A stretch of DNA of 64,000 bases from Isoetes taiwanensis (taxonomy: Eukaryota; Streptophyta; Lycopodiopsida; Isoetales; Isoetaceae). The translations under genes were made by a program, and so were the position numbers. The DNA lies in NCBI GenBank assembly GCA_021234155.1, contig JAJEKV010000296.1:310001-374000 (forward strand), given 5' to 3'. Under the pieces are notes generated by a model. It saw only the letters and a list, made by a program, of their open reading frames with translations. It was not told the DNA's origin and made no database searches. Numbering within the stretch: the stretch's first letter is position 1; every line of letters starts with the position of its first letter. Shown piece by piece: positions 5,563 through 63,604 of the stretch.

Positions 5563-7208
5563 TGTGACGTTCCACGTATTTATACGGTATACGTAACGTA
5601 TTTATATGGTATACGTATAAATATACCGACACGTCACCCATTAAAGGTACGCCACCATGGGGTATTGTAACCTAGGGGGTTGACCTAAAAGGGATTAAAT
5701 TAGCTATGCTAATTTAATCATTAAGGATAATAACCTATAATTTAGGGAATTAATATTAAATGGGTTAATTTGATTAACTAATGCTTTGGGAAGGCGCCAC
5801 CTGGCCTAAAACGATTGGCCAGCATGGGGACTTCCAAATTGGGCCGCCAACCCTGATCCCTATCCCTAATTGACTCCCAAAATTCGTCCAAAGGAGCAGG
5901 AGCCTTAACCCCTCGCCAAGCCGAAGCCACCATACCAAGCACTTTTACCTGTGTAGCTGAAGCTGAGCACCAAGAACCAGGAAGATGGATGCACCAAACG
6001 ATAACGGGTCCAGCCGAAACTCAGGTGGGTGGCTAGGATAGCCTGAGAATTCTAGAATAACGCCCCTGTTGGGCACTGGTTGTGTTTGCTTCTCTGTTCT
6101 CTCTATGTTTTACTTGTAGGAACTAACCCTTGATTGTAAAGGTGAGTTCTCTTTATTTCTGATTCTGGTCTTGCTCGAAAGGATGGATTGATAATTCTTT
6201 GCATAGTATTACTCGGAAATGGGGAATTACGGGGGTAGAGACCTCTGAGCTCATGTAGGGTAGTATGCTCCTAGATAGAGCCCTGTATTATCCCATTAGT
6301 TGCGGCCTGTGTACAAGAGACCACCGGGTCATAGATGCTATGGATTGGCTTAGCACCAAAGAAGGGACGTAGTGATGAAGTGGGGGTGGGGTCTTGCACA
6401 CGAACATAAAAGGCTCGAGACTCCCTGATGGGCCCACGATAGCCCGGCCACGTAGGGGGCGGGTATGGGTCGACACTCCACGGGTGTAGAGGTGTGATAC
6501 GTGATGGAGCACCTTGCACTTTGAGTAGATTTAGGGTGAGTAAGCCCGCAATGAATGGGGGTCGCTGATGCGCACGTATTCTCTAGCTCACCCATGGAAC
6601 CACCGGTGATCCGGAAAGGGACACTTCCCCGACCTGCCTCATCGGACCGGGCGTCATGAACCCTGGAGTAGGCTCAGCAGGGTGATACCTCGAGCATGCG
6701 TCTCCGGAAGGCTATAGCGAAGCCATAGCGTGAATCGACTCATCCGCAAAGTGTGCATGGGAGGGGGCGGATGGAGTGGACAACCCTAGCCGATGTTCTA
6801 TGCCACCAACGCCAAAGTTATACCTCGTCGCTGATCTCTTGAGGCCGAGCCGTCAGTCTATCCTCACAGGAGTCTGAACCGGGATAGAACCTGGGGTTTG
6901 GGGTGTTTTCATTAGGGTTAGATGCATATTCTTTGCCGTTGGTATTTGGATGGATGATCCACCCTTCGTGGTGGATATTTATATATATATTTGTGCTGTG
7001 TGCTAACATTGTATTCACGCTTCCGCGACTTAGGAGTCCCACTGAAGGCGTGGGCCGAATGACACCTCCGTGTCCTTCACTCGGGCATCTCTCTATAGAT
7101 GGCCCGGGATAGACGGAGGGCCCTGCTCATGGCGAGAGAGTCGCCAAGGGAGGGGAAAGTCCCCGTATGTATACGGCCGGGGGTCGTATATATTCAGGGA
7201 GCGTCACA
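5563..7208 (+). repeat. 3' LTR of the truncated chromovirus
   Basis: It starts TGTGACGTTCC and ends GAGCGTCACA, an imperfect version of the terminal inverted TGTGACGT of the complete element. Internal blocks such as GGGGGTAGAGACCTC and AGTTGCGGCCTGTG are shared with the LTRs at 45929 and 61993. Length is about 1.65 kb. Confidence 0.88.
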
Positions 7209-44430: not shown

Positions 44431-44519
44431 ATCTCACCTCGCTCAACTTTCTGAAATTTCTGAGTCCCATTTTCAGGCCGAGTCCCAAAATTCAAGATTT
44501 GTCCCACTTTAATTAAATA

Positions 44520-45345
44520 CGACTTCTAGGTGGTATGCTTGAACCTAGGTGGCATGCCTGAGCCACCTTTGCATGTTGGAACCTAGGTGGCATGTTGGAG
44601 CCTGCGTGGCATATTGGAGTCACCTTGACATGTTTGAGCCTAAGTGGCATGTTAGAGCTTAGGTGACATGTTTGAGCCACCTTGGCATATTGGAGCCCAC
44701 GGGGCATGTTGGAGTCCACGTGGCATGTTTGAGCCACCTTGGCATGTTGGAGCCTAGGTGGCATGTTAGAGCCTAGGTGGCATGTTGAAGCCCACGAGGC
44801 ATGTTTGAGCCACCTTGGCATGTTGGAGCCCACGTGACATGTTTGAGCCACATTGGCATGTTAGAGCCTAGGTGGCACGTTAGACCCCACTTGGCATGTT
44901 AGAGCCTAGGTGGCTTGTTGGAGCCCACGTGGCATGTTTGAGCCACCTTTGGCATGTCAAAACCTAGGTGGCATGTTGGAGCCACCTTGGCATGTTAGAG
45001 CCTAGGTGGCATGTTGGAGCCACCTTGGCATGTTAGAGCCTAGGTGGCATGTTGGAGCCCACGTGAGCCACCTTGGCATGTTGGAGCGACCTTGGCATGT
45101 TAGAGCCTAGGTTGCACATTAGAGCACACGTGGCATGTTTGAGCCACCTTGGCATGTTTGAGCCTAACAACATGCCACCTAAGATGCCAAGGTGCCTCAA
45201 ACATGCCACGCGGGCTCCAACATGCCACCTAGGCTCAAGCATGCCACCTAGGCTCCAACATGCCACCTAGGCTCCAACATACCACCAAGGCTCCAACATG
45301 CCAAGGTGGCTCAAACATGCCACCTAGGCTCCAACATGCCACCTA
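44520..45345. repeat. 21-bp satellite that reverses orientation
   Basis: About 30 units of GAGCCTAGGTGGCATGTTG type (variants GCCCACGTGGCATGTTT and GCCACCTTGGCATGTTA) run in one orientation to about 45165. They then run inverted (CAACATGCCACCTAGGCTC) to 45345. Every unit keeps GGCATGTT. Confidence 0.93.
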
Positions 45346-45389
45346 AGTCGATGTTCCGAGTCTATTAGAAGAGCCAATTTATGGATTGT

Positions 45390-45530: not shown

Positions 45531-45928
45531 ATGATTGTCTACTTCCACACCAGGTCAAATTTGCATTTTATGCCTTCAGGAAATAAATGTGCACGAGCTT
45601 CATTTGTTATTATTCGACTTCCATATTAATTCGTATGATTCAGATCCAAAGTGAAGTTTGTCATGTGGAATAGGCCTGACCTGCACCAATTTCTACAAAA
45701 TATGATAAACATTTACGAAATTATCTTGTTCACCATTGCAGAGCGGTTAAACACAGATGCTGCAATATACGTAATTGATCCTTGTGAATTTATTTCCTGT
45801 AGATTGTTCAAGAACACTTTTTCAGAGGGCGGCATCAAGGATTTTATCGAAACATAATGGAAATTTGAAGAGGATTATCATTGTAGATGATAATTCTTGA
45901 TCTTAGAAATTGGTCCGTTGTCCGTTTC

Positions 45929-47499
45929 TGTGACGTTCCAGCACAGTATACGGTCCTAGGACGTATACTGTACTGCCTCGTCACGCGTACACGCCACTCC
46001 GACTGACGTGTAGCCAGGTGGGTAGCCCCTAGGGGGCAACTTGCAAGGTATGTGCATTTATTATTAATGTGCACATTTACCAATGTGCACATTTATTAAG
46101 GTGCACACATTTCCATGTAGATACATTTATGCCACCTAGCCATTAAAGGCAAGTGGGCCATACCCAATTATCCCACATGCCTAAAGGGATAATTGGGAAC
46201 CCTAGCCCTAACCCCTTGTCTATTTAGGTAGGAGAAACCCTAACTTGCCCATTTTTCATTCTTAGGGTTTTAGAGCTCTGTTTTGGCTGCTCCAAGAGCC
46301 AAAACTGCCTCCCAGACTCTGTCTGAGCGAATTGCACCATTAGTTTTCCTTGATTCGAGCAGTTCAGCAGGATGGTCGAGTTCAGGGCAGGAGGACCGAG
46401 TCAAGGATCGGGTATTTGGTCAATTTAATAGCTTAAACCGTCTTCTAGTCATTGAATCAGTAGGTTTAGCCTATTAAATTGCCCATAGCAGCCCTCTAGA
46501 TCTCTAGATACCAGACTCTAACTAAAGAACCTAACTCTATGATATAGATTAGATCTAGTTCTTTAGTTCTTCTGTGATGTATATGGATGATGTATCTCTG
46601 TGAACTCCTTGTATTGGGAAGGGGGGTAGAGACCTCAAGCTTGGTAGTAGATGCTCCTAGATTAGCCTCTCTAGCACATTGTAGTTGCGGCCTGTGCACA
46701 AGAGCCTGGTTGTGGGTGAAGGGGCCAGACTGGCTTAGAAAGAGGTTCGTGTTCTGACTCCTGAACGATCCCTCTAGTGTATAACGTCTGCCGGGGATCA
46801 TTGTGGACTAGGTCTAATGGCTTGCCACTGCGTGTGGGCAAGGCATGGGCTCGACACCCGTGGAGTGATGCGTCACTCTCCAGTGGGTTTAAGTCGAATA
46901 AGGGCAGTGGCCCTCTAGTCGCCTTGAGTCAGCACGTAGATCTCTGGAGGGAGAGATCCCTTCCTGCCCCATCGGAACTGGGGAGATGCAACCCAGGAAT
47001 AGCCCCTTTGGCTATGCATCCGGCGGGCTCTGATCGAGGTCCCAACACTTTTCAGCCTACTCTGCAAAGTGTGCACAGGAGGGGCGGATGGAGTGGACAA
47101 CCCTAAGCCATGTTCTTATGCCAGCCAAATCCATTGCCATGAATTCTGTCTGCAATGAACTCTGGAGACCCAATTCGTCAGTCATTCCTTCGAGTATGAG
47201 CCTTGGGTAGGATTTCCCATGTGTATTGTGCTGATCTTTGTCTATGCAGATGTTGATGGACCACCCTTCGAGGTGGATAGGTGATGCTATTATATACTGA
47301 CATGTATGTTTACGCTTCCTTTGACTAGGTAGGCCACGAGGGAGGCGGGGTAAATGACCCCTTCACTCTTCCCCTTCGGAACCATTCTACGGTTGCGGTG
47401 TTATGTGTGGAGGGCCACATGCCATCGGCATGGGTGGTATGGGGATGAACTCCTGTTTGTATACGGTGGGTGCACCGTATACGAGTAGGGGACGTCACA
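45929..47499 (+). repeat. 5' LTR
   Basis: It is 1571 bp with ends TGTGACGTTCC and GGACGTCACA, and matches the 3' LTR along its length apart from the first 100 bp and small indels. The ORFs inside it (for example 46777-47106) are recapitulated in the 3' LTR and are not genes. Confidence 0.95.
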
Positions 47500-47500
47500 G

Positions 47501-47513
47501 TGGTATCAGAGCC
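47501..47513 (+). other. primer-binding site for initiator tRNA-Met
   Basis: TGGTATCAGAGCC lies one base after the LTR and is complementary to the 3' end of plant initiator tRNA-Met, the usual minus-strand primer in plant Ty3/gypsy elements. Confidence 0.93.
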
Positions 47514-47707
47514 AAGTTCTTGGCGACCAAGAGCAAAGCACTGACCATGCTCCCAGTAGTACTAACTTGATAGGATCCTCAAACCTCGAAAAATGGGAAA
47601 TTTTTTTTCTCTCATTTTTGTAGTATATGCTAAGCTAGTAACAGTTAAAATGAATGAAAACATAAAAAGACAAAAATTAGTGAGCCAAACCTTCAAAAAG
47701 TAGGATG

Positions 47708-47774
47708 GTCTCACACGTCGCGCCAGGACAGATAATGAGAATCTCATTTTCGGGCTGGGCGCAACGTGTGAGAC
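47708..47774. repeat. 67-bp palindrome, copy 1
   Basis: GTCTCACACGTCGCGCCAG at the left pairs with CTGGGCGCAACGTGTGAGAC at the right, with an inner AATGAGA/TCTCATT stem. Confidence 0.93.
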
Positions 47775-47922
47775 ATTCAGCCTGAAACACCCTAAAAAGT
47801 CATGTATTTCAGAAAAATAACTTGATAATTCTAATTTTAAGCTAGGAATTAGTTAGAATTGGTACGTTACATTTCTAAAAACATGCTTAGAAAGTATAAA
47901 ATTTAGCATCAGAATCTACCAT

Positions 47923-47987
47923 GTCTCGCACGTCGCGCCAGGACAGAAAATGAACTTTTCATTATCGATCTGGGAGCAACGTGAGAC
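47923..47987. repeat. 65-bp palindrome, copy 2
   Basis: Same family as copy 1 with three changes in the outer stem (GTCTCGCACG ... GAGCAACGTGAGAC). It lies 70 bp before the TATA box of the H3-like gene. Confidence 0.9.
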
Positions 47988-48056
47988 CATGCTTAAATTT
48001 AGGTGTTTTAGGTGACCCAAAAAGGTTGTTTGAAATTTGACCTAAAATCGCCCGCC

Positions 48057-48065
48057 TATAAATAG
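48057..48065 (+). promoter_or_regulatory. TATA box of the H3-like gene
   Basis: TATAAATAG, 60 bp before the ATG at 48125. The gene therefore appears to have had its own promoter inside the retrotransposon. Confidence 0.7.
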
Positions 48066-48124
48066 ACCTAGGCCCCGCTAAGGCAATTTTTCGGCGCCGA
48101 CATCGGATTGACGAGCCGTCGAAC

Positions 48125-49408
48125 ATGGCGAGAACCAAACAATTTGCCAGAAGCCCCCCGCCCAGCGAATCTTTTCGGCGCCCATGATCCCCCTCGACTG
48201 CAGAATAGCCTTCTCGAAGCGCCTCGTGCATGGCCAGTCTTCATCGAGTGAGGGGGCAGATTCGGACGAACACCAAAGCGAAGGATCCCAGCAGCGAGAG
48301 GAGGACACACACTCCGATGCGGGAACAGAGGTCCTAGGCGAAGGGCAGCCGGACATCATGCAAAAGATCCTCGAAGAAGTCGACGAGGAGATGAGGAAGA
48401 AGAAAGAGGAACAAGATCGGGTGGCCGAGGGTCGTGAAGAGCAGAGGCAGCCAACCATTGAGGAGCAACTTGAAGCTTGGGCTCGTTTGAAGGAGGCTGA
48501 GGAGCGAGAGGAACAGAGGGAGCCGAGGCTCGAGCCAGCCGAGGAAGAGGAGCTCGCGGCATGGATCAAAAAGCACGAAGCCAAAGAGCACCGCCGCCAA
48601 AGAGGAGGAGCCGAGCACAGCCAGCGAGCCGAACAAGAGGAAGGCGAAGGGCATAAAGGCGGGCAAAAGAACAGTCGTGAGGGTTGAGCGGGTAAGGGGT
48701 TTAGTCATCAACGAGCCATCAGGCGACCAGACCCCGCCCTCCACCGACGACTCCGACGAAGATTACGTCCCCAACACTGAGGGGGCAAGCTATTCAAAAC
48801 CCCCGGTTGTGGAGCAGGTAATACCTGAGCAGGTAGTACCCGAGCAGGAGCAGCCCGGGCAGGCGCCGAAGCCCCCACCTTACCCGACGTGGGATAGGGT
48901 CAAAGCACCGCGGTATGTGATAGACCCCGTCAAGGTCTATCAAAAGAAGCTGAGGGAACACAATGCCTTCATGGCGAAGTGGGAGGCATATAACACATAG
49001 TATCAGGAGAACAGGGTGAGAACCATCGAAGGCGGACACCCGACAAAGAGCCAGACTCTAAAGCCGCCACCACCAAAGCCCAAGCCTCCTTGAGCACCAG
49101 GGAAGAAGCGGACCGGCAGGAAGGAGACGGAGAGGAGAGCTCTCAAGGAGATCCGGCACTTCCAGCGAAGTTACGGATTCTTGATCCCCCGAGCATCGTT
49201 CGCCCGCCTGGTCCGAGAGGTCATCCAGGAGTATAACACAGACATGAAGGTGACCGACGAGACGTTGTTGGCCCTGCAAAGGGCAGCAAAACAGAAACTG
49301 CTGCAGCACTTCGAAGATTCGACGGCCTGCACAGTTCACGCGAAGAGGGTCACACTTATGAGGCAAGACATGCATCTTGCTAGTCATATCAAGGGAGAGC
49401 GCCCTTAA
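48125..49408 (+). pseudogene. histone H3-like protein with long internal linker
   Basis: The first codons read MARTKQFARSPPPSES. Canonical H3 begins ARTKQTARKS, so residues 1-5, 7 and 8 match and Lys4 is kept, while Lys9 is missing. The C-terminal 90 residues (49137-49405) are a complete H3 fold: ALKEIRHFQRSYGFLIPRAS, then FARLVREVIQEYNTDMKV, LLALQRAAKQKLLQHFED and VHAKRVTLMRQDMHLA, ending IKGERP. The H3-H3 interface residues (Cys110, His113, Arg116, Asp123 positions) are retained. Loop 1 has canonical H3 length, not the CENH3 insertion, although LIP and VTLMR recall CENH3. Between lie about 330 residues of acidic, Glu/Lys/Arg-rich probable coiled coil (48184-48687) and a Pro-rich segment, against 136 residues for normal H3. 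Tail and fold share one frame. Two frameshifts bracket the acidic part, and stops at 48998 (TAG) and 49091 (TGA) break the rest. Confidence 0.92.
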
Positions 49409-49553
49409 ACATTTTGTAAATAATAGAAAATTTTTGTTAATATAAAGAATTTTTGGTTAAATAATATGTTTAATCCTGCTTAATTAGGTTAAGATATTGA
49501 ATTCTGGCTTTTGTTTTGGTTAAAATGGACTTTTTGAGCAAAATTGAGACGAT

Positions 49554-49620
49554 GTCTCACACGTCGCGCCAGAACAGAAAATGAACTTTTCATTTTTGGG
49601 CTGGGCACAACGTGTGAGAC
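49554..49620. repeat. 67-bp palindrome, copy 3
   Basis: GTCTCACACGTCGCGCCAGA to GGGCACAACGTGTGAGAC, about 145 bp after the H3-like stop codon. Confidence 0.93.
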
Positions 49621-49753
49621 CATGCCCCAAAAATGCCCAAAACTGCTCCAAATTGACCAAATAAGGGGTCAATTTTGCCTAACTCGACGAGTCCAGTAGA
49701 ATTAGACCCTTAGATCACCCAAATTGGTCGAGTTTAGCCCATTTAGAGCCAAT

Positions 49754-49820
49754 GTCTCACACGTCGCGCCAGGGCAGAAAATGAACTTTTCATTATCGGT
49801 CTGGGCGCAACGTGTGAGAC
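49754..49820. repeat. 67-bp palindrome, copy 4
   Basis: GTCTCACACGTCGCGCCAGG to CTGGGCGCAACGTGTGAGAC. The spacing to copy 3 (200 bp) mirrors that of copies 1 and 2 (215 bp) on the other side of the gene. Confidence 0.93.
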
Positions 49821-50120
49821 CTCTCAGCATTTTCTTCACCATGTCATATCCAAATGATCTCCAGTTTGTTGCAATAGGTTCATTAGTTGATCTTAGCAAG
49901 CTCAAACCCTAAAAGTAGTCTTCAAATTCTCATTTGACCTCTTAATAGGTCAGAATCGCCCAATCCCAGTAAAATTCTAGGTCATCCAAAAATTAGGGTT
50001 TTTCCCTTTTACTTTACTTTACTTTATTTATTTATCACGCCATTTTTGAGACCCAACAAGGTCTATATGGCAAAACAGATACAATGTTTTTAGCGTAGAC
50101 GCTTGTCTGTATTCACAGCT

Positions 50121-53100
50121 TCAAAAGTCATCAACGTTAAAAACACCCTGGTTTTGCAGATTTACCATGTGTTCATAAAGCTTGATAACATCTGATCTTT
50201 CCTTGTATATATTCTTTATGTAAGCACTGAGTACTAGTGGATCAATGCGTAGCAACTCTTGCAAACCAATACAAGAAATACCAAATTTCAGCCTAATGTG
50301 ATCATAAGATGGGCATTCTATAAAAGCATGAAACTCACTTTCAACCTTTGGAGATGCCAAACAGCAAGGGCATAACCGATCCGATTGGGGAATATTTTTC
50401 CATCTACCAACCTCAATAGCAAGATGATGTGAAGACAGTCTTAGCTGCGAGAGCAAATGCCTTGACTTCCTATCCAAACCGGATTCCAAGTAAGGTTGAG
50501 CACAATATTCACCCAAGAAGTTTACCTCGTTTACATAGAATTGTGCTTTTACTTCATTCTTGATATCGTCTGTCCGCCAAAGTCTATGCACCATTTTCAG
50601 TTTGACGAATGCCTGGATGTCTTCTAGTTTCTCTGGCCAGGTAAATGCCTCAATATCCCATTGCTTTGCCCATTTCAAGATCTGAGAGTACCAGCCATTC
50701 CCTCTTATTTGTGACAATTTGTAGCATGGTGCGGCAAGCGGTATGGTTCTAGAGCGACTACCTTGGTAAGATAGTGCAAGGTATAACTGAGTGCTTCCAA
50801 CTCCAAAGGAACAAAACCCGTTTCAGCCAAAAGCATTTGTAAGGGGTCTGAGCTTTCACACCTAGTTCTGTAATAAGAAATTGTTTTTGTACCTTTTCAA
50901 TACTTGCCCAATCCGCTCTCGATAGTCCAGGTGCCCATGCGGGACATCCATATAGCATGACAGGTTTGACCAAGACTCCGAAGAGCAACTGCCGCAAGCT
51001 CCAATTTTCAAAATTATTCTCTTTACATATTTTGATCATTCCATAAAAGGCTCGAAGCCCGCCTGTAGCCCGTCTTCTTGCAGCTACTGACCACTTATAG
51101 TTGCTACTGACGTCGATTCCAAGGTATTTGTAGGCTGGAATAATCTCCAAACTCTCCCCTCCAATTGAGAAATTCGGCTTGTCTGTGGTTCCAAACACCA
51201 TGATCTTGGATTTGCCCCTGTTTACTGACATGTCATGCGTTTCACAAAACTTATGAAGAACATCTAAGTGTATTTGGAGACCATTTATAGTTCTGGAAAT
51301 TAGCACAATGTCATCAGCGAAAAGCAACAACTGTACCACGTATCCACAAATGTCTACTCCTGTGCCTCCATTTTCGTGAATCCATTTCTCTAACTCATCA
51401 ATGAACAATCCAAATAGTAGCGGTGAACAAGGACATCCTTGTTTAACGCCAACTGTATTTTGGATCTTATGGCTCTGGTCAAAAGGGAATGAAAGCTCAA
51501 CAAGAACACGCTGATAGAGACATGCCACAGCTTCCCGCAGCTCCGTTGGTACAGATATAGCCTCCAATCTAGCTTGCAATTTGTCCCTGTGCACTCTGTC
51601 AAATGCCTTTGACAGATCCATAAAAGCGCAGTAAACTTTATTTCCTCACCCGTTAGCACTTTCTAGAATCACGCGCAGTGTAACAAGATGGTCTACAATC
51701 GAGTGCCCTGACCGAAAACCAGCCTGACATACGGCCCTGACATTTGCATGATCTGCCCAGTGTGAGAGTTTATCTTCAATCATGGTTGCAAACAGTTTAG
51801 ACAATATATTTCCCACCAAAACAGTACGGTAATTAGCAACCTGATTTCGATCTCCACTCTTATAAATGGGTACAACGCGGTTGACACACCAATCATCCGG
51901 AAAAGATCCACGTTTCAATACAAGATTGCATATCTCAACCAGCTTTACGTGTAACTTGTCATTTCCCCATTTGCATAACTCCGCTACAACCCCTAGGTTG
52001 TCAGGTGCCTTCCCGTTTTTTTTGCCACTGAGAGCATTTTGAACGTCATCTATAGTGAAAAAATCACAGTCAATTTTGCCTGGTGTTTTCATGGGCATAC
52101 ATCCATCAATATTGTATAGGCTGTTCACTAGATCTATGAGGTCTTTTTCTGAAAAACCGCCATTTGTAGCTGAGCTTTTGGTGAGTCTCCAGAACTTTTT
52201 TGGTTCATCTGACACATATTCTTCCATTTGCTTATGATGCAACTTTAGCCACACCGATTTCTTTTTCCTCAACAATCTCCAATATGATTTGCGAGCTGCC
52301 ACCTTATCCTCTGCTTGTCTAAATGCTGCCCTAGCTTGAATGCACTCGTTGTCAAACCACTTCTTTGATGTATATCTACTTGTTTTCGTGTAGCCAAAAG
52401 TTTCAGAGGCTGCTGTAATCATAGTAGTGACCAAAAGCATATTAAATTTATCAAGATCTGCTGGCCACTGTTGCTGCTCCAACAATTTGTCTAATTTGCT
52501 TGCATAGTCATGCGCTAGATTATACCGCAATTTCAGCCGCGGCACATGAATCTTTCTTTTTTGTATGCTTCCCAAAGTTGCTTCCAAGTGTAATTCCAAC
52601 GGAGCATGATCCGACTCTGGTAATCGGTCTAAGATCTTAAATTCTTTAAGCTGCTCACTTTCTGGGCTGCCCACAACTAAGTCAACCGTAGAGTTACCAT
52701 TGGGTTGAAAACAGGTATATTTACATGTCTGTGGGAATTTTTTTAGTCCATTCATAACAATCATGTACAAAGCCCCACAAGTTTGCAGCAAATACTTACC
52801 CATTTGATTTTGATTTGTATCTGGAGAATCTCTATCAAGCCCATAATCTATTGCATTCGCTTCCCTTAGCAAGAGATCCGCACAATCCTCAGTAAAAATA
52901 GATGCTTGCTGAATTCCTACCCTGGCATTAAAATCGCCCACCACGTAAACTTCTCCACTCGTTTGATATTCTAAAATATCTCGGGCTAGATGCAGGAAAG
53001 GGTCATGAGCATCCAGATCTCCTAGCGCGTATACCGGCGATGGTACTGGATCAAGTGGAGCAAAGTAGACTCCCGCAATGTACAAAGGTTTGCTACCTTT

Positions 53101-53388
53101 CACTTGGATCCATAAATACTGTTTGTATGGACATGTCTTTAAGATTTCAATATGGTCTTCTATCCCTGTTTTCGCAAAGCAAGCTATTCCTCCCCATCCT
53201 CTTTGACAACTTCCCTTCTCATTCCAAATAGAGTGTACCTTGGTGAAGCCTGTTATACTCTTTAATGGAGACGTATCATATTCCCAAGTTTCCGTGAACA
53301 ATATACCAAAGAACATGTTACAGGCAATGAATTTGCTCTCGTCTGCACCGTGTAGATTCCAAACTAGAACCTTGAGGGTCGCTGCTTC
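50121..53388 (-). pseudogene. LINE ORF2 protein (APE endonuclease, reverse transcriptase, CCHC)
   Basis: An apurinic-endonuclease-like domain opens right after the ORF1 stop (LKVLVWNLHGADESKF, TETW, VYVVGDFNARVG, SDHAPLELH). The reverse transcriptase has CQAGFRSGHSIVDHLVTLRV, MDLSKAFDRVHRDK, GVKQGCPCSPLLFGLFIDEL and the catalytic QLLLFADDIVL. The C-terminus has a zinc-knuckle-like CPCCLAS...HAFIEC. One TGA (51648-51646) separates the palm from upstream RT, and a frame change near 50740 precedes the C-terminal segment, so this copy is inactive. APE plus CCHC places it in the L1/Tx1-related range. The exact clade cannot be set by eye. Confidence 0.9.
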
Positions 53389-54136
53389 CTATTTGCTTGC
53401 TTGCTTAACTACAACCTTACCATTTCTGATGAAAGCCTGCTGGCCTTCTGCCTTCAATCTCCTAACCTCTTCAAGCAATTTTTTCCTCTCTTGTTGCTGA
53501 TGCAATGTGAGATCATCATCCAGCCATATTTGATGGCCTTTGAGACTGGCCCTGTTATGCATCACCCTTTCTCTAGCGTCAACCGAATAAAATCTTATGA
53601 TAATTGGCCGATGACGTCCCTCTACTGTTCTTCCAACTCTGGAACATGAACGAACCCCTGGATCATTCAAGAACATTTTATTCTTGAATAAATCATCTAC
53701 CACTTCAGTTACCTTCTCCCCATCTGATTCTGGAAGTCCAGATACTTTTATGTTAAGCCGCTTCGGTTTTATGCGTTCTTCTAATTCCAATGCTCTATCC
53801 GCCCTGTTTGAATAGATCGGTTACCCCGTTCTCAATATTTGTAGAAAATTTTGCTACCACGTCTTCTGCAGATTGGATATTAGGTGAGCTGGTAAGCCCT
53901 TCATTCTCTTTTTGCAATTGCTTAATGAGTTCCTTGTCAGCTACCTGTTGAGCTTCCAATTCGCATACCCTAACCTGCAGTTGCTGTGTTTTTTCTGCTG
54001 CCTCTCGTGTTTCCTTAAGAGTCTCCTTGAGGATTGATTTCAAGCCTGCAATTTCATCTTTTAATTCCCTCAGATGCTCCAAAACCTCTCCCTCTCCATC
54101 CCCAGAACATCCGCTGGCCTTCCGCCCCCTTGCCAT
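53389..54136 (-). pseudogene. LINE ORF1 protein (coiled coil plus L1-ORF1-type RNA-binding domain)
   Basis: The frame from the ATG at 54136 gives a basic start and a long coiled coil (LRELKDEIAGLKSILKETLK and the ETREAAEKTQQLQVRVCELE stretch). A one-base shift near 53800 leads into KRLNIKVSGLPES, RPIIIRFYSVDARERVMHNR and ERKKLLEEVRRLKAEGQQAF, the order seen in the RRM and C-terminal domains of animal L1 ORF1p. Plant L1 elements more often carry an RRM with zinc knuckle instead. It ends at a TAG (53391-53389), with ORF2 following in the same frame. The product would be a trimeric RNA chaperone (family knowledge). Confidence 0.8.
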
Positions 54137-54225
54137 GTCCGCCCCCTTACCGAACCCGCTGAACTCCGCTTAGCGCCTCATACGCTAATCATGCCTTGCT
54201 GATCAATCGGTGTGTTTACGATTTC

Positions 54226-54235
54226 TATAAATAGG
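54226..54235 (+). promoter_or_regulatory. TATA box of the second histone-fold-like gene
   Basis: TATAAATAGG, 112 bp before the ATG at 54347. It is the same TATAAATAG sequence as the H3-like gene's box. Confidence 0.6.
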
Positions 54236-54346
54236 TCCCCCATTTCTCACTTAGCACCCTACAAGTTTGCTCTTTTTTGTTTAGGGCGATCTTCCGGCTC
54301 CCCGAGGCTTACGCATCTGTTTGCTAGTCTCTTCTTCGCTAAATCA

Positions 54347-56199
54347 ATGGCCACTGCTGACTTCAGGCGATGGTACAACGCCAGTGCCCATGCTGCCGAG
54401 GCTGATGTCAATGACATCTTCCGAGTCTTTAGGAAAGAAATAGATGTCCAAGCCACTCTGAATGCAACCCCAGCATATAGACACGTTTTAGCAGAGTTCC
54501 AAGCTAGGGTAGGACCCTCCCTAGTGCAGCCCCCCTTGCCTGAGGACTATTTTGTTCCCCGCCCATCCCTTCAAGCAACCTTGGGTGATGTCCCGAACAT
54601 CGCCAAGTACTTGACCAACAAGGCACAGAGGCTGCCAGATTACATGGTCCCGGCAGGTTGGCGGGACCAAGTATTTCTCCTACACGGCTGCCTTAGCCAT
54701 TTTCCTCTCCGCGTGCGAGAAAACCCAATCGGGGAACCTCTATCCCTCCCATGGAGGTGGACCCCATAGCGACCTCGCGAAAGCTAGAAAGCAGCATGCT
54801 TTTGCAACATGAGCAAGAGCGGGGAAGAAAGGTCGAAGAAGAAGAATCGGACGAGGAAGAGTACACCTGAGCTCGACCCGGAGGAAGAAGACGGCGGCAA
54901 AGCGTAAGAGGAGCTATCCAACCCGGCCGGAGCGGCAGACCCTCAGAGTCCCTCCCCCACTTGGGCTAGGCATCACAAGCCTAGCCCCCATCATCATCGA
55001 CGGAGAGGAGTATCTATTCCTCAGCGACATCCAGAACCTTCCCGAATGCAGGGAGAACGAGTTCCGGATTGACGAGTTGCTGCACCAACTACGGCAGTCC
55101 GACTTGGATGACTTCATCGTCCGGGAAGTCTCAGACTTTCCGCTTCAAGTCAGGGAAGCCGACACCTACACAGGGGAGTCGACTTCCGACATCCAGGCCT
55201 ACAGCAACATCAGGCAAATGATGGAAGCGCGAGAGCTGCCAACGGAGGAAAAGTTCCTCGCCCTCCAGGAACAGATGGGGATCCGTGGCAAGACCACGAG
55301 CATCTTAATGCCGAGCTCCTCGACACCACCTCCAGCAAGAGGAGCAGGGATCGACATCGGGCGGGTCGACTCCACAATCAGGGATTACCAGGAAATCACT
55401 GAGGTGGAGGTCGACGAATATGCCGGAAGGCATAGACCAGGAGGCCAAGCGGTGAGGAGAGGAATCGTCGCAAACACACAACGAGGGTCGCCGAGGTACT
55501 ACCTTCCCCCCTTTCTTTGGATGGGAGAATAGCGGTGATACACCGCAAATTCAGCCCCCGGGGTGAGGAAGGAGTGTTCATGCTTATTGCACTCTCAGGC
55601 TTCGGCAGGCATGCTCGAATAGCGGCAAATGTCGACTATGTTGTCCTAGTCAAGAGAGCAATGGCACTTGACTTCGTCGTGCCCTACCGATGACAGGGGG
55701 GTGAAAGCATGTTAGGGTGTCCCTTAAAAAGTATTATTTAGTGACTAAAAAAGTACCTAAAAGGTACCCGGACTGGTAGTACGGGTACACCAATGTAATA
55801 TGTCAATAAAAGGTACATTTTAGAACTTTTATATATATTTTGGGCTTAGATAGCATTATATTTATCTTACCTTTAAATATTAACACGTCCTTGACTTTTA
55901 TTTTGGACTTTTGTACTAGTTTTAATGAAAAGAAAAATGAGAAAGTACCCAGTTCTGAAGTACCTAGTGTATGTACTTTTGCAGGTTCCAAAAGTGGTAC
56001 ACCCTAACATGCTTTTACCCAGGGAAGATTGGCGGTAACTGCAGCCTACAATACGACCATGAGTAGAAGAGTTGGTGTCGACCTTGCGGTGGTGGGGACG
56101 TCAACCAATGTCTTCAGGAACTTGGGACGCTCGGTAGGAACGGCCCAAGTTAAGAAGTTCCTCGAGGACAACCCATCTTACCGGCGATTTCAAGATTAG
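54347..56199 (+). pseudogene. second element-borne gene, probable H2B-like histone fold
   Basis: It starts MATADFRRWYNASAHAAEAD. The N-terminal 400 or so residues (including RIDELLHQLRQSDLDDFIV and PTEEKFLALQEQMGIRG) match nothing I know except the pseudogene at 18560. The C-terminus, after a shift near 55520, aligns by hand with H2B: SGFGRHARIAANVDYVVLVK against [20 protein letters not shown], then after the inserted MITE GRLAVTAAYNTTMSRR against SRLAHYNKRSTITSRE, and RSVGTAQVKKF against VSEGTKAVTKY. The last keeps S-x-G-T-x-x-V-x-K-[YF] at exact spacing. The identity is low and a profile search is needed. H2A and H4 fit less well. Frameshifts, stops (54767, 54869) and the MITE make this copy non-functional. 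Confidence 0.5.
55704..56015. mobile_element. 312-bp MITE inside the histone-fold-like gene
   Basis: Ends AAAGCATGTTAGGGTGT and ACACCCTAACATGCTTTT are inverted copies. Inside, GTACC/GGTAC motifs recur. It lies between the second and third helices of the presumed fold. The target duplication is not resolved because the inverted repeat extends to the edge. Confidence 0.8.
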
Positions 56200-56367
56200 T
56201 TAGACTCTTGATCCCGGAGATTTTGTACTAAAATATTATATAATATAAATATAATTTCTTTTGTACTTTAAAAGTTTTGTTGATGTATTTTGTTCCACAA
56301 CTATGCCAACAAACCATATATAATGCAAGAGAACAAGTAAAACTAACCATGTAGCCATGAACTACTT
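56200..56367 (+). other. short leader before gag
   Basis: AT-rich spacer. The six-base ACTAAC occurs here (56342) and at 47557, just after the primer site, so it could be the scar of a nested insertion comprising all the extra DNA. Six bases are too few to be sure. Confidence 0.3.
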
Positions 56368-57813
56368 GTGTATGCAGCTAGAGGCCCAGGTTCAGGGGAA
56401 CAACAATGGCGGAACCATAGGGAAGAACAGACTCCGCCCAGACCACCCCCGGCAAGGAGCCTATATGAAGCATTTGGGGACATGACTCCAGAGGAAGAAA
56501 TTTCACAGATGAGAACGGACCTCGAGCAGATAAAGGCTCTCTTAGCGGCACAAGGAGGAGTTGGCCCAGATGGCAGTGTCCAGTTACCCCAAGCATCACC
56601 TCGGAAAGCAGGAAGGGACAAGAAGAGGAGCAAGAGAAGGAGGTCCCCCAGCACGGTATCCTCCGACTCAAGCTCGAACTCAGATTCTGGTTCCGAGGAG
56701 GAGGCTGAACAAGTGCAGAACCGAAGAGACGACAGACACAAGGAGACGAAAACCTCGGACTACCAGAAGAAGGTAGACTCTGCATTGGGAAACGTATGGA
56801 AGGCCAGGAAGCTTGAGCAATTCTCAGGTGAGAACAGATCAGGCATGGAAGCAGAGGCTTGGCTCGATGAAATGAGTGAATATGGCAACGCCTATGGTAT
56901 GAAGGATAAGGATAAAGGCAGGGTGGCAACAGCCAACCTGAAGGGAGCAGCACGCATTTGGTGGAAGGGTTATGCCAAGGCCCATGGCTTAAGCAGGGAT
57001 GCTTGCAGGTTCAGAAAGTTTGCCAAAGCTTTCAAGCGCCATTACGTCCCAAGAGAGCACAAGTCCAACATGATGCAGCAGTTTTATAGGTTGCAGCAAG
57101 GCAACAAATCAGTCCAGAAATATACAGAGGAATTCATGAGACTAAGGCTGTATGTGCCCAAGTTGAGTGAAAAGCATGCAGTGGAGAGTTATATTGAAGG
57201 GCTGAATGATGAGATCCGCAAGCTTGTAAGGGCAATAAACCCTAAGACAGTATCAGAAGTAAGCTTGCAAGGGACGGGACCTCAGAATAGCGGGCAGAGG
57301 CAGCAGTATTACCAGGACAAAGGCAAGGCAGTAGGGAGTTATAGCCCTAGAGCGGCGAGCCCAGGTCCAGCTAGAGCCCCATATGGTGGCAACCAGGGGA
57401 AGCAGCAGGAGAAGAAGCAGGTGTCCTTCAAAGACAAGCAGGAGGGGTCAAACTACTCCAAAGCAGTGCGGTCCTTTTTGCAGGCAATGCCCAAGGAAAA
57501 GAGGCAGGAGTGCATAGAAAAGCAGCTTTGCTTCAGGTGTTTCCAGCCGGGCTACAGGACAGCGAACTGCCCCTACATCATGAGTGCAGCGCTAGCAGAG
57601 TTGGGAGACTGGGACACTCCGTCTGACGACGACGGCGAGGCAGCCCGCGACTATATTCAGGGTGAGTGTCATATCTTTGCCGCAATAGACACAGAGCAAG
57701 CAGAGAATCAATTTCAGGTAATATCCACAATAGCGAAGGCCAAAGCCAAGTCATTCACAGTCCTGATAGATTCGGGAAGTAGTCACAACTTTGCATCCCC
57801 AAGAATGGTATAG
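56368..57813 (+). CDS. gag: Ty3/gypsy gag with start of protease
   Basis: The polyprotein frame is open from at least 56368; the true start may lie slightly upstream. An acidic and Arg/Ser-rich N-terminus is followed by the Retrotrans_gag domain (AWLDEMSEYGNAYGMKDKDK, GAARIWWKGYAKAHG, FAKAFKRHYVPREH, ESYIEGLNDEIRKLV; about residues 155-290). The zinc knuckle near residue 390 reads CFRCFQPGYRTANC. The canonical His is Tyr, which would weaken zinc and RNA binding. The frame ends in the protease active site VLIDSGSSHNF, closed by a TAG at 57811 where a one-base shift separates it from pol. Confidence 0.92.
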   Translation: MYAARGPGSGEQQWRNHREEQTPPRPPPARSLYEAFGDMTPEEEISQMRTDLEQIKALLAAQGGVGPDGSVQLPQASPRKAGRDKKRSKRRRSPSTVSSDSSSNSDSGSEEEAEQVQNRRDDRHKETKTSDYQKKVDSALGNVWKARKLEQFSGENRSGMEAEAWLDEMSEYGNAYGMKDKDKGRVATANLKGAARIWWKGYAKAHGLSRDACRFRKFAKAFKRHYVPREHKSNMMQQFYRLQQGNKSVQKYTEEFMRLRLYVPKLSEKHAVESYIEGLNDEIRKLVRAINPKTVSEVSLQGTGPQNSGQRQQYYQDKGKAVGSYSPRAASPGPARAPYGGNQGKQQEKKQVSFKDKQEGSNYSKAVRSFLQAMPKEKRQECIEKQLCFRCFQPGYRTANCPYIMSAALAELGDWDTPSDDDGEAARDYIQGECHIFAAIDTEQAENQFQVISTIAKAKAKSFTVLIDSGSSHNFASPRMV

Positions 57814-60800
57814 AAATGTTGAAGCTCAAGCCATTGAAGTCCAAGCCAAGACCCGTGGTGTTAGCAAACGGGGGAGTAAGGCATACAGCAGGCAAAAGGA
57901 TAAACTTCGACATTGATTTGCCGGGAATCAACATTCAGATGGGGGCAGAGGTAATGAATATTGGAAGTATGACTTAATCATTGGAATGGAGTACCTTGGT
58001 CCAGCAGGAGCCCTCATTGATTGTGGAAAGCGGAAGGTGACCCTCACAGCACCCAATGGCAAAATCATAGAGATCACAGGTAAAGAAGTTGCTCCCATTA
58101 TGCAGTGCATGTCTAGTAAGCAGTTGTTCAGGTGCATAAAGAGTGAGCAGGTAGCATATATCTTCAAGCTTGAGATTCAAGAGCCCGAATCAGAAGAAGG
58201 TCAGGAAGATAAGGGGCTCGGCAAGTTGCCCAAGCAAGTAGCGCAGTTGATCACGGAGTTCCACGATCTCTTTCTAGATGAGATCAAGCAGCTTCCTCCT
58301 TATAGGGGAGTCGAGTGTGAGATAGCACTCGAACCAGAGACAAAGCCGACAAGCAAAGCCCCATACAGAATGACAACGCAGGAGCTGACGGAGCTAAAGA
58401 AGCAATTGCAGGAGTTGCTCGACCTAGGCTTCATTAGACCTAGCGTCTCGCCGTTTGGAGCACCCATTCTTTTTGTAAAGAAAAAGGATGGTAGCTTGAG
58501 GATGTGCATAGACTACAGACAGTTGAACAAGCACACCATCAAGAACAAGTATGCGCTCCCTAGATCAGACGACTTGATGGATCAGCTCCAAGGGGCAAAA
58601 GTCTTCTCCAAAATCGACCTAAGGTCAGGCTATCACCAGATCAGGATAAAGGAAGAAGACGTCCATAAAATGGCTTTCAGGACCAGGTATGGGCACTATG
58701 AATTCACGGTAATGCCTTTCGGCTTATCGAACGCCCCAGCAACATTCATGAGGCTCATGAATGACATCTTCAGGGAGTTCTTGGACACCTTTGTGATAGT
58801 ATTCTTTGATGACATTTTGGTGTATAGCAGATCCCTGGAAGAACACGTGCAACATCTAAGGAGAGTGCTTGAGAAATTAAGGAGGCACCAGTTGTACGCC
58901 AAGTTGTCGAAGTGCCACTTCGCAACGGAGAGGGTGGAATACCTGGGTCATGTGATATCAGCGGAAGGAATCTCAACGGATCCCGCCAAGATTGAAGCCG
59001 TCATTCAGTGGCCGGCACCGAAGAATGTGCATGAGGTCAGAAGTTTCCTTGGCCTAGCAGGGTACTACAGGAAGTTCGTGAAGAACTTTGCTAACATAGC
59101 GGCGCCGCTAACAGACTTGACGAGGGCGGAAAAGGTGAAAGATTGGGCAGACCATTGGCACAAGAAAGCCCAAGCAGGGTTTGAATTGCTGAAGGAAGCT
59201 TTGACAACCGCCCCCGTCTTAACCCTGCCAGATCCAGAGAAAGATAAGCTTGTGGCGACAGATGCGAGTAAGATAGCCACAGGTGCAGTGCTCATGCAGG
59301 AAGAGCGTGTAGTAGCGTATGATTCCAGGAAGATGAACGACGCCGAAACGCGCTACCCGACCCATGATCAGGAATTGCTTGCAGTTGTCAGGGCATTAAG
59401 AATTTGGAGGCACTACCTCTTGGGAAGGAAGTTCCAATTGGATACAGATCATCAGAGCCTCCAGTATGTATTCACGCAACCACACCTTAACCTGAGACAG
59501 AGAAGGTGGATGGAGTTCCTCGAAGAGTATGACTTTGATATAGTCTACAAGCCGGGGAAGCTCAATGTGGTAGCGGATGCGCTTTCAAGGCACCCCCTGA
59601 CAACTAGAGTGCATTGCAATGCAATTTCGACGCTTTCCAGCGACTTCGGAAAGAAGATTGAAGAATCCTTGCCAACGGATGTGGACTTCAAGGAAGTATG
59701 GGCAAGCTTATGCAGGGAAGCAAGAACGGACAAAGAGAGAGAAACCTTCAAAAATTTTAAGAAGGAAGGTAATCTCTTATACCACAAGAACAAGTTGTGC
59801 GTGCCAGAATCATTGGGTGTAAGGAAGTTGATTCTCCATGACACACACAACAGTCCAATAGCTGGCCATGCAGGATTCATGAAGACATATTTCAAAGTGC
59901 GCAGCAGCTATTATTGGCCAGGAATGAAGAAGCAGGTAGCTCGCTACATCAAGGAATGTCAGCTATGCCAGCAGACGAAGGCAGAGCAGCTTCGAATTCC
60001 AAGGGCATTGGAGCCATTAGCGGTGCCAAACGCTAAGTGGGAGGTCATCAGCATGGACTTCATAACAGGGCTCCCAAGGACAGTAAGAGGGAAGGATGCC
60101 TTGATGGTAGTGGTCGACAAGTTGTCGAAGATGGCACATTTTGTGCCTTGCAGGACCACAGACACGGCTATGGATGCAGCGAAGCTCTTCACCAAAGAAA
60201 TCTTCAGGCTCCATGGCATGCCAAGGGAGATCATTTCCGATAGAGATCCGAAGTTCATGAGCGCCTTTTGGCAAGATCTCTTTGCGACGATTCAGACGAA
60301 GCTATCCATGAGCACGACCTATCATCCTCAGACGGATGGCCAAACGGAGCGGACCAACAGAATTTTGGAGGACATGCTACGAAACTGTGTCTGGAATAAG
60401 CAAGGTATGTGGGAAGAATTTATTCACTTGGTGGAGTTTGCGTATAATAGCACCAAGCAGGAATCATCCTAAATGTCGCCGTTTATGATCAATTACGGCT
60501 ATCAATGCCTAACTCCAGACACTTGGCACAATCCCGTGTCAAAAGTAGAAGTTTCGCAGCAGATGTTGGCCGATATGCAGCAGCTGGTGGAAGAAGTTCG
60601 GGGATATCTTCTAGCAGCAAGGAGTCGACAGAAGAGCATCGCCGACAAGCATCGAACAGTCAGAGAGTTCCAAGTTGGAGACAATGTTTGGCTGAAGATC
60701 AAGGTGAAGCAGGCGAAGCTCAGGATCGGCAATTGCAAGAAGCTTGCTCCAAGGTGGGCTGGACCTTTCAGAATAGTCCAGAGAGTAGGTAATCAATCCT

Positions 60801-61150
60801 ACAAGTTAGATTTGCCAGCACACCTAAAGATTCATAAAGTCTTCCACGTGAGTTTATTGAAGAAGCATACTCCAAATCCAGACGAAGTCTTGGACACTCC
60901 AACGTTGTTGGAAATGACGGAGGAGCAGCTGGAAATAGTTCCAGAATTGATTCTTGATAAAGCTTTCAAGAAAACAAGGAGATCAGAGTTTCTCCAATAT
61001 TTGGTTAAGTGGAAACACTTGCCGGTGGAAGACGCGACGTGGGTACTCAAGAAGGATCTATTAAAGCAGTACCTACAGTTTATGGAGCAATGGGACGGCA
61101 AGGTCATCTCCGAAGAAATCGGCTCAGGCATGTCGATTTGTGTAGATTAA
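57814..61150 (+). pseudogene. pol: Ty3/gypsy pol (protease, RT, RNase H, integrase, chromodomain)
   Basis: After two small shifts the protease end ([11 protein letters not shown]) runs into an 828-residue frame from 57986. RT motifs are [34 protein letters not shown] and [10 protein letters not shown] (near residue 270). RNase H has [12 protein letters not shown] and [20 protein letters not shown]. Integrase has the HHCC finger ([22 protein letters not shown]) and the DDE core ([38 protein letters not shown]). A TAA at 60470-60472 interrupts the frame. The remainder gives a GPY/F-type module (APRWAGPFRIVQRVGNQSYK) and a C-terminal chromodomain (QYLVKWKHLPVEDATWVLKK), which in chromoviruses can target insertion to marked chromatin. 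Confidence 0.95.
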
Positions 61151-61992
61151 TTCTATGTGTAGTTAAGATTAATTCCACGATGCAACCTATGCTAGGTATG
61201 GGTTGCATGCGTTTGTTCCACCACGGTGATCTCTAGGGCGGTGTAATGTCAATGTAGGCATGACCGCGTTTCCGCTTTGGATGAGTGGAAGGAAAGTCTA
61301 CTGGTCCCACGGAAGTAGACCTCGAGAGAAAGGAGGTCATTGAGGAATGCATTGATAGGAAAAGCACCTCTAGTCAATGCCCTGGGGAGGACCCTATCCT
61401 TCACGCCCCATATACGGGAAGGACCTTATCCTCCACGCTGGGCAACTAAAAGTGTAGGCATGAGCGACATCTAGGCATGATAGGGCGCTGTCTCCACGGC
61501 CACGATGGAAGAAGCATCCTCTTCCTATGCCGGGAGATTAGCCATGCATTCATGTAGATAGGTGGGGTGGTCACCATATAACCAAAATTTTATTAATAAT
61601 TAAAATGGTACTAACGTAGTATCGACCTGCAGGCCAATAGAGCTCCGGAGGGCAAGGAGGTCGAGCTACGAAGACTTGCAACACAAATTTTGTTGGAATG
61701 TGTTGCAAGGAATGAAGAGTACCTCGAACGTTAATTTAAAATTTTGATAAACTAAATTGTCGTGATAAGTGAATTATCGAGTAACTTGTTTTAATGATGT
61801 TACAAATTGATAAGTTAATTCATAAGATAATGCCATAATAATGTTATAAAAATATTACCTTAAGGTAATCTTAATAAATCTGTAAGTATTATAATAGTAT
61901 ATTGTATGCATCAGGTTGATTGCAGGTTAGGAAGATCCCAAGGTGGGGAGACCCACGATGCTGCGAACAACATCATTTCAAGGTGGGGAGAA
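61151..61992 (+). other. pol-to-LTR spacer with polypurine tract
   Basis: Non-coding. It ends AAGGTGGGGAGAA directly before the 3' LTR. The shorter AAGGTGGGGAG also occurs at 61938, a possible second tract. Confidence 0.8.
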
Positions 61993-63599
61993 TGTGACGT
62001 TCCAAAGACAAATTATAACGGTCCCGTGATCGATAATATCATGTCTTTTGCCACGCCGCATTACCGCCACTCCGACTGACGTGTACGCCGATGTGTAGCC
62101 AGGTGGGTAGCCCCTAGGGGGCAACTTGCAAGGTATGTGCATTTATTATTAATGTGCACATTTACCAATGTGCACATTTATTAAGGTGCACACATTTCCA
62201 TGTAGATACATTTATGCCACCTAGCCATTAAAGGCAAGTGGGCCATACCCAATTATCCCACATGCCTAAAGGGATAATTGGGAACCCTAGCCCTAACCCC
62301 TTGTCTATTTAGGTAGGAGAAACTCTAACTTGCCCATTTTTCGTTCTTAGGGTTTTAGAGCTCTGTTTTGGCTGCTCCACGAGCCAAAACCGCCTCCCCG
62401 CACTGCCTGCGTTTAATTGCACCATTAGTTTTCCTTGATTCGAAAGCAGATTCAGCCGGGATGGTCGAAGTTCGAGGTATGTGAGGACCGAGCCAAGGAT
62501 CAGAGGTATTTGGTCAATTTAATAGCTTAAACCGTCTTCTAGTCATTGAATCAGTAGGTTTAGCCTATTAAATTGCCCATAGCAGCCCTCTAGATCTCTA
62601 GATACCAGACTCTAACTAAAGAACCTAACTCTATGATATAGATTAGATCTAGTTCTTTAGTTCTTCTGTGATGTATATGGATGATGTATCTCTGTGGAAC
62701 TCCTTGCATTGGGAAGGGGGTAGAGACCTCAAGCTTGGTAGTAGATGCTCCTAGATTAGCCTCTCTAGCACAACCAGAAGTTGCGGCCCGCGGCACAAGA
62801 GCCACACCTGGTTGTGGGTGAAGGGGCCAGACTGGCTTAGAAGGAGGTTCGTGTTTTGACTCTTGAACGATCCCTCTGGTGTGTAACGTCTGCCGGGGAT
62901 CATTGTGGACTAGGTCTAATGGCTTGCCACTGCGTGTGGGCAAGGCATGGGCTCAACACCCGGGAGTGATGCGTCACTCTCCGTTGGGTTTAAGTCGAAT
63001 AAGGGCAAAGGGCCCTCTAGTCGCCTTTGAGTCAAGACGAGATCTCTCGGAGGGAGAGATCCCTTCCCGCCCCCATCAAACCGGGGAGATGCAACCCGTG
63101 AATAGCCCCTTTGGCTATGCATCCCTGCTGGCAGCCATCAGTCCCAACACTTTTCCTACTACGCGCAGTGTGCAATGGGAGGGGCGGATGGAGTGGACAA
63201 CCCTAAGCCATGTTCTTATGCCAGCCAAATCCATTGCCATGAATTCTGTCTGCAATGAACTCTGGAGACCCAAGCCGTCAGTCATCCCTTCGAGTCTGAG
63301 CCTTGGGTAGGATTTCCCATGTGTATTGTGCTGATCTTTGTCTATGCAGATGTTGATGGACCACCCTTCGAGGTGGATAGGTGATGCTCTTATATACTGA
63401 CATGTATGTTTACGCATCCGCAGCTAGGTAGGCCCTGAGGGAGACGGGGTAAATGACCCCTTCACTCTTCCCGGAATCGAACCCGTTACGATTTTGTGGT
63501 GTTATGTGGAGGGCCCCAGACGGGCAAGGCGCCGGGTATGGGGATGAACTCCTGTTTTTGATACCACGGGTGCACCGTATACGAGTAGGGGACGTCACA
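61993..63599 (+). repeat. 3' LTR
   Basis: It is 1607 bp with the same ends and internal blocks as the 5' LTR, followed by the GTTTC target duplication. Substitutions and small indels between the two LTRs indicate an old insertion, and the first 100 bp differ most. Confidence 0.95.
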
Positions 63600-63604
63600 G
63601 TTTC

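Follow-up and report, generated by a model that had tools for sequence, protein, structure and literature searches.

A Ty3/gypsy chromovirus of Isoetes taiwanensis carries a real H3-like histone gene, beyond anything expected by chance, and this gene recurs widely in the genome. In its unbroken copies it encodes a long protein in which an H3 tail and an H3 fold are separated by a large insert, and both tail and fold of this element-borne H3 are kept by purifying selection. We consider it probable, from the features of the gene and its copies, that the product is a functional, selectively maintained H3 variant encoded by the element and predicted to act in host chromatin. Marks on histone H3 are the main means by which hosts keep transposons silent. 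If the prediction is true, an element family having its own H3, with tail and fold selected near synonymous saturation, would be a direct counterpart in the conflict between host and transposon.

The host element and its H3-like gene

The element spans 45929-63599 (17,671 bp) of the window, i.e., of the whole stretch of 64,000 nucleotides that was analysed, and is flanked by the target site duplication (TSD) GTTTC. Its parts follow each other in the order 5' LTR, primer binding site (PBS), H3-like gene, LINE-like insert, ORF2, gag, pol, chromodomain and 3' LTR (Table 1). An earlier note, made from the sequence alone, had placed the gene inside a Ty3/gypsy chromovirus, between LTRs and with a target duplication, and the LTRs, the PBS, the TSD and the Chromo domain all bear this placement out.

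Table 1. Features of the element and of its H3-like gene, with positions in the window.
Feature	Position	Strand	Evidence or remark
TSD GTTTC, left	45924-45928	.	read from sequence
5' LTR TGTGACGTTCC...GGACGTCACA, 1571 bp	45929-47499	+	91.6% over 1,530 aligned bp to 3' LTR
PBS TGGTATCAGAGCC	47501-47513	+	read from sequence
Two hairpins 5' of H3-like gene	47707-47994	+	MFE -39.8 and -24.9 kcal/mol
TATA box TATAAATAG, 68 bp 5' of H3-like ATG	48057-48065	+	motif match
H3-like gene, tail piece MARTKQFARSPPPSESFRRP	48125-48184	+	frame opens with MARTKQFAR
H3-like gene, acidic insert, different frame in window copy	48184-48684	+	continuous with tail and fold in 17 unbroken copies
H3-like gene, remaining insert with conserved middle stretch	48677-49093	+	stops at 48998 and 49091
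H3-like gene, histone fold and stop codon	49094-49408	+	Pfam Histone 9.6e-22; PDB H3
Two hairpins 3' of H3-like gene	49549-49824	+	MFE -35.0 and -41.7 kcal/mol
ORF2, second accessory gene, broken here, MITE-like insert within	54348-56199	+	TATA box at 54226
gag	56368-57813	+	Pfam Retrotrans_gag 3e-18
pol (RT, RNase H, integrase)	57986-60472	+	RVT_1 2.7e-40, rve 1.4e-9
Integrase C-terminus with chromodomain, past in-frame stop	60473-61150	+	Chromo 2.7e-9
3' LTR, 1607 bp	61993-63599	+	LTR-LTR alignment
TSD GTTTC, right	63600-63604	.	read from sequence

Pfam orders the domains of the pol frame (57986-60469) as RVT_1 (residues 164-324), RNase H (391-515) and integrase (612-781), and the Chromo domain at the integrase C-terminus, the mark of a Ty3/gypsy chromovirus, scores 37.2 bits against a cut-off of 25.1. 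By eye, two of the three methyl-lysine cage aromatics are absent from this chromodomain, a pattern that the available part of one source describes for group II chromodomains (PMC3350952). The two missing aromatics make a simple H3K9me partnership between the H3 variant and the integrase chromodomain unlikely, and the earlier idea that the histone complements the chromodomain is, in its simple form, doubtful. ORF2, compared in four pieces with Pfam, hit no family above cut-off, and an Rfam scan gave no match at the gathering threshold. The two LTRs are separated by a K2P distance of 0.113 (5' LTR taken as 45929-47501), hence the window copy is old.

Several other repeats lie in or near the element. 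A LINE-like insertion with endonuclease-like and RT-like frames (by eye) occupies 50040-54136 on the minus strand, and the MITE-like insert within ORF2, at about 55709-56013, has the inverted ends GCATGTTAGGGTGT/ACACCCTAACATGC (by eye). A partly inverted minisatellite with a 19-base spacing (44474-45350) is found just 5' of the element. A second, related Ty3/gypsy element is present in part only, at 2820-4832, where it is about 70% identical in pol over 2 kb; an LTR-like piece lies at 6743-6809, and the 5' part of this second element extends beyond the window.

The last 104 codons of the H3-like gene are open and form the H3 fold, for which the suggested histone HMM search (49094-49405) returned the Pfam match of Table 1 and the best solved-structure match was H3.3 (3.4e-22). 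The gene had been called complete, which holds for the fold and fails for the reading frame: the frame opened at 48125 stops at 48185, and the coding text passes at about 48184 into a second frame (open to 48684) and near 48590 back into the first, only to meet the two stops listed in the table. With two frame changes and two stops, the window copy cannot make the full-length protein. Its tail, MARTKQFARS, departs from that of the family in having F instead of T as residue 7 and S instead of K as residue 10 (counted from Met as 1). Loop 1 was correctly described as having the canonical H3 length (alignment). Retained H3-H3 interface residues had also been noted, and C110, H113, R116 and D123, which in a numbering that we assume we take to form this interface, are indeed present (by eye). 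At the positions of R63 and K64, presumably DNA contacts of H3, the window type carries P and R, respectively (by eye, in the same assumed numbering). An AlphaFold2 model of the fold was weak (pLDDT 64.8, pTM 0.36) and gave the helices in aN-a1-a2-a3 order at low confidence.

Copies of the window type across the genome

The assembly (1.66 Gb, 1,110 contigs) was searched with 99 residues of the fold, and the best 150 of 8,862 first-look candidates were scored; these 150 show 81-100% fold identity, with E below 1e-46. From 20 of the 150 loci, chosen for long open frames, 10 kb each were fetched, and 17 contain an unbroken protein of 398-467 aa that starts with MARTK and ends with the H3 fold; with the insert, the canonical plan of about 136 residues with the tail directly on the fold is absent. 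The start reads MARTKQTAR in 15 of the 20 fetched copies, MARTK being absent from L016, L018 and L028, and K9 is found in 13 of the 17 unbroken copies and V in its place in four. The suggested search for other copies thus recovered the same gene at the same place: the 20 loci have an LTR upstream (18), the PBS motif TGGTATCAGAGC (16), ORF2 downstream (18), gag (16) and pol (12). Eight more copies, 4 kb each, were taken regardless of frame length; all eight have ORF2 downstream, five an LTR upstream and four the PBS motif, and within these 4 kb no open frame extends back to MARTK in any of them. The H3-like gene is part of the plan of the family, and many of its copies are decayed.

A degenerate DNA pattern for MA[R/S]TKQTA[R/S] gave 904 + 984 = 1,888 exact matches, as compared to 0 for the reversed control, a count that admits R or S at residues 3 and 9 and includes host H3 genes inseparably. 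Among the first 40 of the 100 matches listed, 28 spellings differ, so the peptide is kept while the codons change. Four loci drawn from this list with the fold ignored (L052-L055) all encode MARTKQTARK and all have an H3-related fold about 1 kb downstream, in interrupted frames. Identity to host H3 in the best piece is 54% for L052, 63% for L053, 55% for L054 and 34% for L055. The fold piece of L053 has 43 of 57 residues as in host H3 and is closer to it than the window type, which suggests a series leading from H3 to the window type.

A near-canonical subfamily

With canonical plant H3 as a query, the best 150 of 9,039 first-look candidates fell into 15 rows at 97-99% identity, three of which were read fully and are ordinary host H3, and 135 rows at 85-89%, in many of which open frames reach 400-567 aa. 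Since only about every second residue of the window-type fold is the same as in host H3, this list and that of the window type should not overlap. Six of the 135 near-canonical loci were fetched and read: each has a long N-terminal extension followed by a fold 87-89% identical to host H3, and none starts with ARTKQTAR. Their extensions are of two types, related to each other (hhalign 99.9), and profile comparison of the N-terminal parts detected no common origin of the window type and the near-canonical type. The PBS motif is present upstream in three of the six and a short LTR similarity in five. About 4.3 kb downstream, L037 has an integrase (81%) and a chromodomain region (43%) of the same pol family; the 1.5 kb read at the corresponding distance from L040 holds no pol similarity. 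ORF2 of the window type and that of the near-canonical type are weakly similar (best E 0.011). A gene starting with MA..DLL.WY is seen at the ORF2 position of near-canonical copies, the ORF2 of the window starting with MATADFRRWY.

Promoter motifs and hairpins

The motif TATAWAWR lies near -109 of the H3-like ATG in 16 of 17 copies of the window type (-68 in the window copy), as compared to 5.2% of random windows. It is also found upstream of ORF2 in 16/16 copies, mostly near -122, and in one of the six near-canonical copies, at -245. The H3-like gene of the window type is thus located behind its own putative TATA promoter. Four strong hairpins of about 65 bases, TCTCACACGT...ACGTGTGAGA, surround the H3-like gene, two on each side, and occur at like places in many of the copies L009-L028. 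Across 67 hairpin sequences, pairing is kept in 1,168 of 1,200 cells, and both partners vary in 4 of the 18 pairs, these counts being uncontrolled.

Selection on tail and fold

In the 17 unbroken copies, the fold has a median dN/dS of 0.06 and the tail (residues 1-12) one of 0.08, with a pooled pS of about 0.53 in both; the values are higher for the middle stretch (0.13), the linker (0.23) and the acidic insert (0.24). Because the copies had been ranked by the similarity of their folds and chosen for long frames, the figure for the fold is biased downwards; the tail played no part in the ranking. RT yields 0.24 in nine copies, a value that is not like for like with that of the fold because broken copies are included. 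Pairwise pN/pS in the near-canonical fold is 0.00-0.10 at pS up to 0.99, and 0.15-0.58 in the extension. When neutral decay was simulated down to 50% identity (2,000 runs), 6% of the runs remained free of stops and none free of both stops and indels; given these 6%, the outcome leans on the indel rate, which was taken from the LTRs.

The constraint on residues 1-12, together with K9 in 13 of 17 copies and in all four loci picked by the tail alone, could be explained by a soluble sponge, whose ARTKQTARK would occupy the writers and readers of H3K4 and H3K9 and weaken silencing, the fold serving to keep the protein in the histone-chaperone pool. However, constraint on the fold equals or exceeds that on the tail, V replaces K9 in four of the 17 copies and the six near-canonical copies read have no ARTKQTAR start, so that such a decoy is possible but on the whole unlikely.

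Relationship to H3 and CENH3

In phylogenies, the window-type folds, which share 49-58% identity with host H3, group in a single clade (100/100) at the end of a long branch, and the near-canonical folds form a single clade (97/86) beside host H3. The phylogeny that the earlier note had called for therefore does not group the window-type fold tightly with any host H3. A single chance retrocopy of H3, which the note had named as what would refute its reading, is ruled out by the 150 scored loci, by the same placement of the gene in other copies and by this level of identity.

Exons of host CENH3, located by a loop pattern, are found at two places, L051 (G000:C1067:23806501-23810500) and L050 (G000:C1049:8517351-8517850); read from these exons, the protein starts with MPRKKSTPK and has RWTAEAL in the stretch from loop 1 to a2. 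The available part of PMC13317346 cites centromere targeting through CENH3 chromatin in Arabidopsis. A CENH3-like window type might lead the element to centromeric chromatin or interfere with it. HFQ[KR]SYGF and T.E.L, common to the window type and host CENH3, are in line with such a role. So is a tree in which the two are held together, which gains 2.14 log units over the free tree and is not rejected (p-AU 0.60), the free tree including host CENH3 being weakly resolved; holding all element folds with host H3 gave a p-AU of 0.14, and all element folds together 0.07. Host H3 and CENH3 differ at 29 sites, and among these the majority residue of the window type is that of CENH3 at 9, but that of H3 at 10 and neither at 10. 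Furthermore, loop 1 is as in H3, one residue shorter than in host CENH3, the tail is that of H3 rather than MPRKKS, and in a tree without host CENH3 the window type falls outside the group of CENH3-like rows. Centromere steering is, on this balance, very unlikely. As for its origin, the window-type fold may derive from H3 or, as HFQ.SYGF in the host gene suggested, from CENH3, and the element H3s may go back to one capture or to two.

A proposed role in host chromatin

The functional H3 variant that we favour would join the H3 tail ARTKQTAR, with K9 in most copies, to the H3 fold through an insert of some 260-330 residues, in which an acidic part is followed by the conserved middle stretch, and would be expressed from a gene sitting between PBS and gag with a putative TATA promoter of its own. 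Its fold is expected to pair with host H4 and a second H3, and the protein would then become part of (H3-H4)2 tetramers or of nucleosomes, either on the element or on target DNA, where its tail could be written or read by host H3 enzymes. Located where the H3 tail leaves the nucleosome, the insert need not block assembly and may form an extra domain that lies clear of the nucleosome core. The element would probably benefit through altered chromatin on its own copies or at its targets, which could counter silencing or favour integration. Selection on both the tail and a dimerising fold fits a chromatin protein partnered with H4 better than a decoy alone or packaging. The broken window copy, P and R at the presumed DNA contacts, the weak model of the fold and a TATA motif in just one of six near-canonical copies weigh against this role.

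A packaging protein, which like a core histone would condense the element's cDNA or RNA inside the particle, would suit an element-borne gene adjoining gag, and such a role has been proposed for DNA-virus histones in the accessible text of PMC9145170; yet Pfam scans found no H4, H2A or H2B partner in the element, and the modification tail that is kept would be superfluous, which leaves this role highly improbable. That a captured gene is copied along without function, as the broken window copy and the gene capture by plant LTR elements described in part of PMC13317346 might suggest, is disfavoured by low dN/dS at high synonymous divergence in two subfamilies, by the conserved TATA box and by 0 of 2,000 neutral runs left intact, and deserves almost no credence.

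The favoured chromatin variant also allows a broader, distinctly doubtful extension, in which this retrotransposon lineage would have its own nucleosome component: several subfamilies with long H3s, at least one with its own promoter, would form variant (H3-H4)2 with host H4, the extra domains setting the chromatin of the lineage's own copies, and one branch with a CENH3-like surface under an H3 tail could also reach or rewrite centromeric chromatin. An abundant chromovirus-type family with its own long H3 suggests that these elements use their own histone to act on host chromatin, and a natural H3 whose tail and fold are set apart by a large insert offers a system for testing tail function far from the nucleosome core.

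Known systems and related proteins

Among open-licence papers, we found no LTR retrotransposon with a histone gene, and one may have been described elsewhere. The nearest precedent, from the part of the source available, is H3L, which a hAT DNA transposon carries in Pyrenophora tritici-repentis (Manning et al., 2013, PMC3538342). There too, an H3-like gene that is neither H3 nor CenH3 and has insertions in its N-terminal tail was multiplied by a mobile element, but the carrier is a fungal DNA transposon and its 26 nearly identical copies have, according to the authors, perhaps drifted. On the contrary, the present gene belongs to an LTR retrotransposon with several diverged subfamilies, is under selection, has an insert of 260-330 residues and still begins with ARTKQTAR unaltered. 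Single H3 histones of DNA viruses (PMC9145170, in part) resemble it as H3s without the other core histones, which implies host partners in both cases; the review deals with DNA viruses, and a count of "retrotranspos" and "retrovir" in its text gives 0.

Plant chromoviruses with a group II chromodomain share gag, pol and a C-terminal chromodomain minus two cage aromatics by eye, the likeness being drawn by chromodomain and gag/pol only, and the accessible part of PMC3350952 makes no mention of a histone gene. Additional ORFs of plant LTR retrotransposons are likewise extra genes kept by a family, but in the text available of PMC7264820 they lie mostly between pol and the 3' LTR, as opposed to between PBS and gag here, and "histone" occurs 0 times. 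Plant CENH3, represented by the host copy L051, has a divergent H3 fold with the HFQ.SYGF residues, whereas the window type has a loop 1 of canonical length, an H3 tail and a long insert and is borne by an element.

A search of IMG/VR gave no match. Protein database searches, one scoring the 7,992 candidates with the most shared words and another listing 120 of 172 matches, brought up no close relative, the best identity among the matches listed being 54%, in the fold. Two database proteins, P0002 (328 aa) and P0005 (376 aa), the latter starting with MARTKN, have a long N-terminal part before an H3 fold. Profile comparison of these N-terminal parts detected no kinship with those of the element H3s, and both proteins may be similar long H3s of other organisms.
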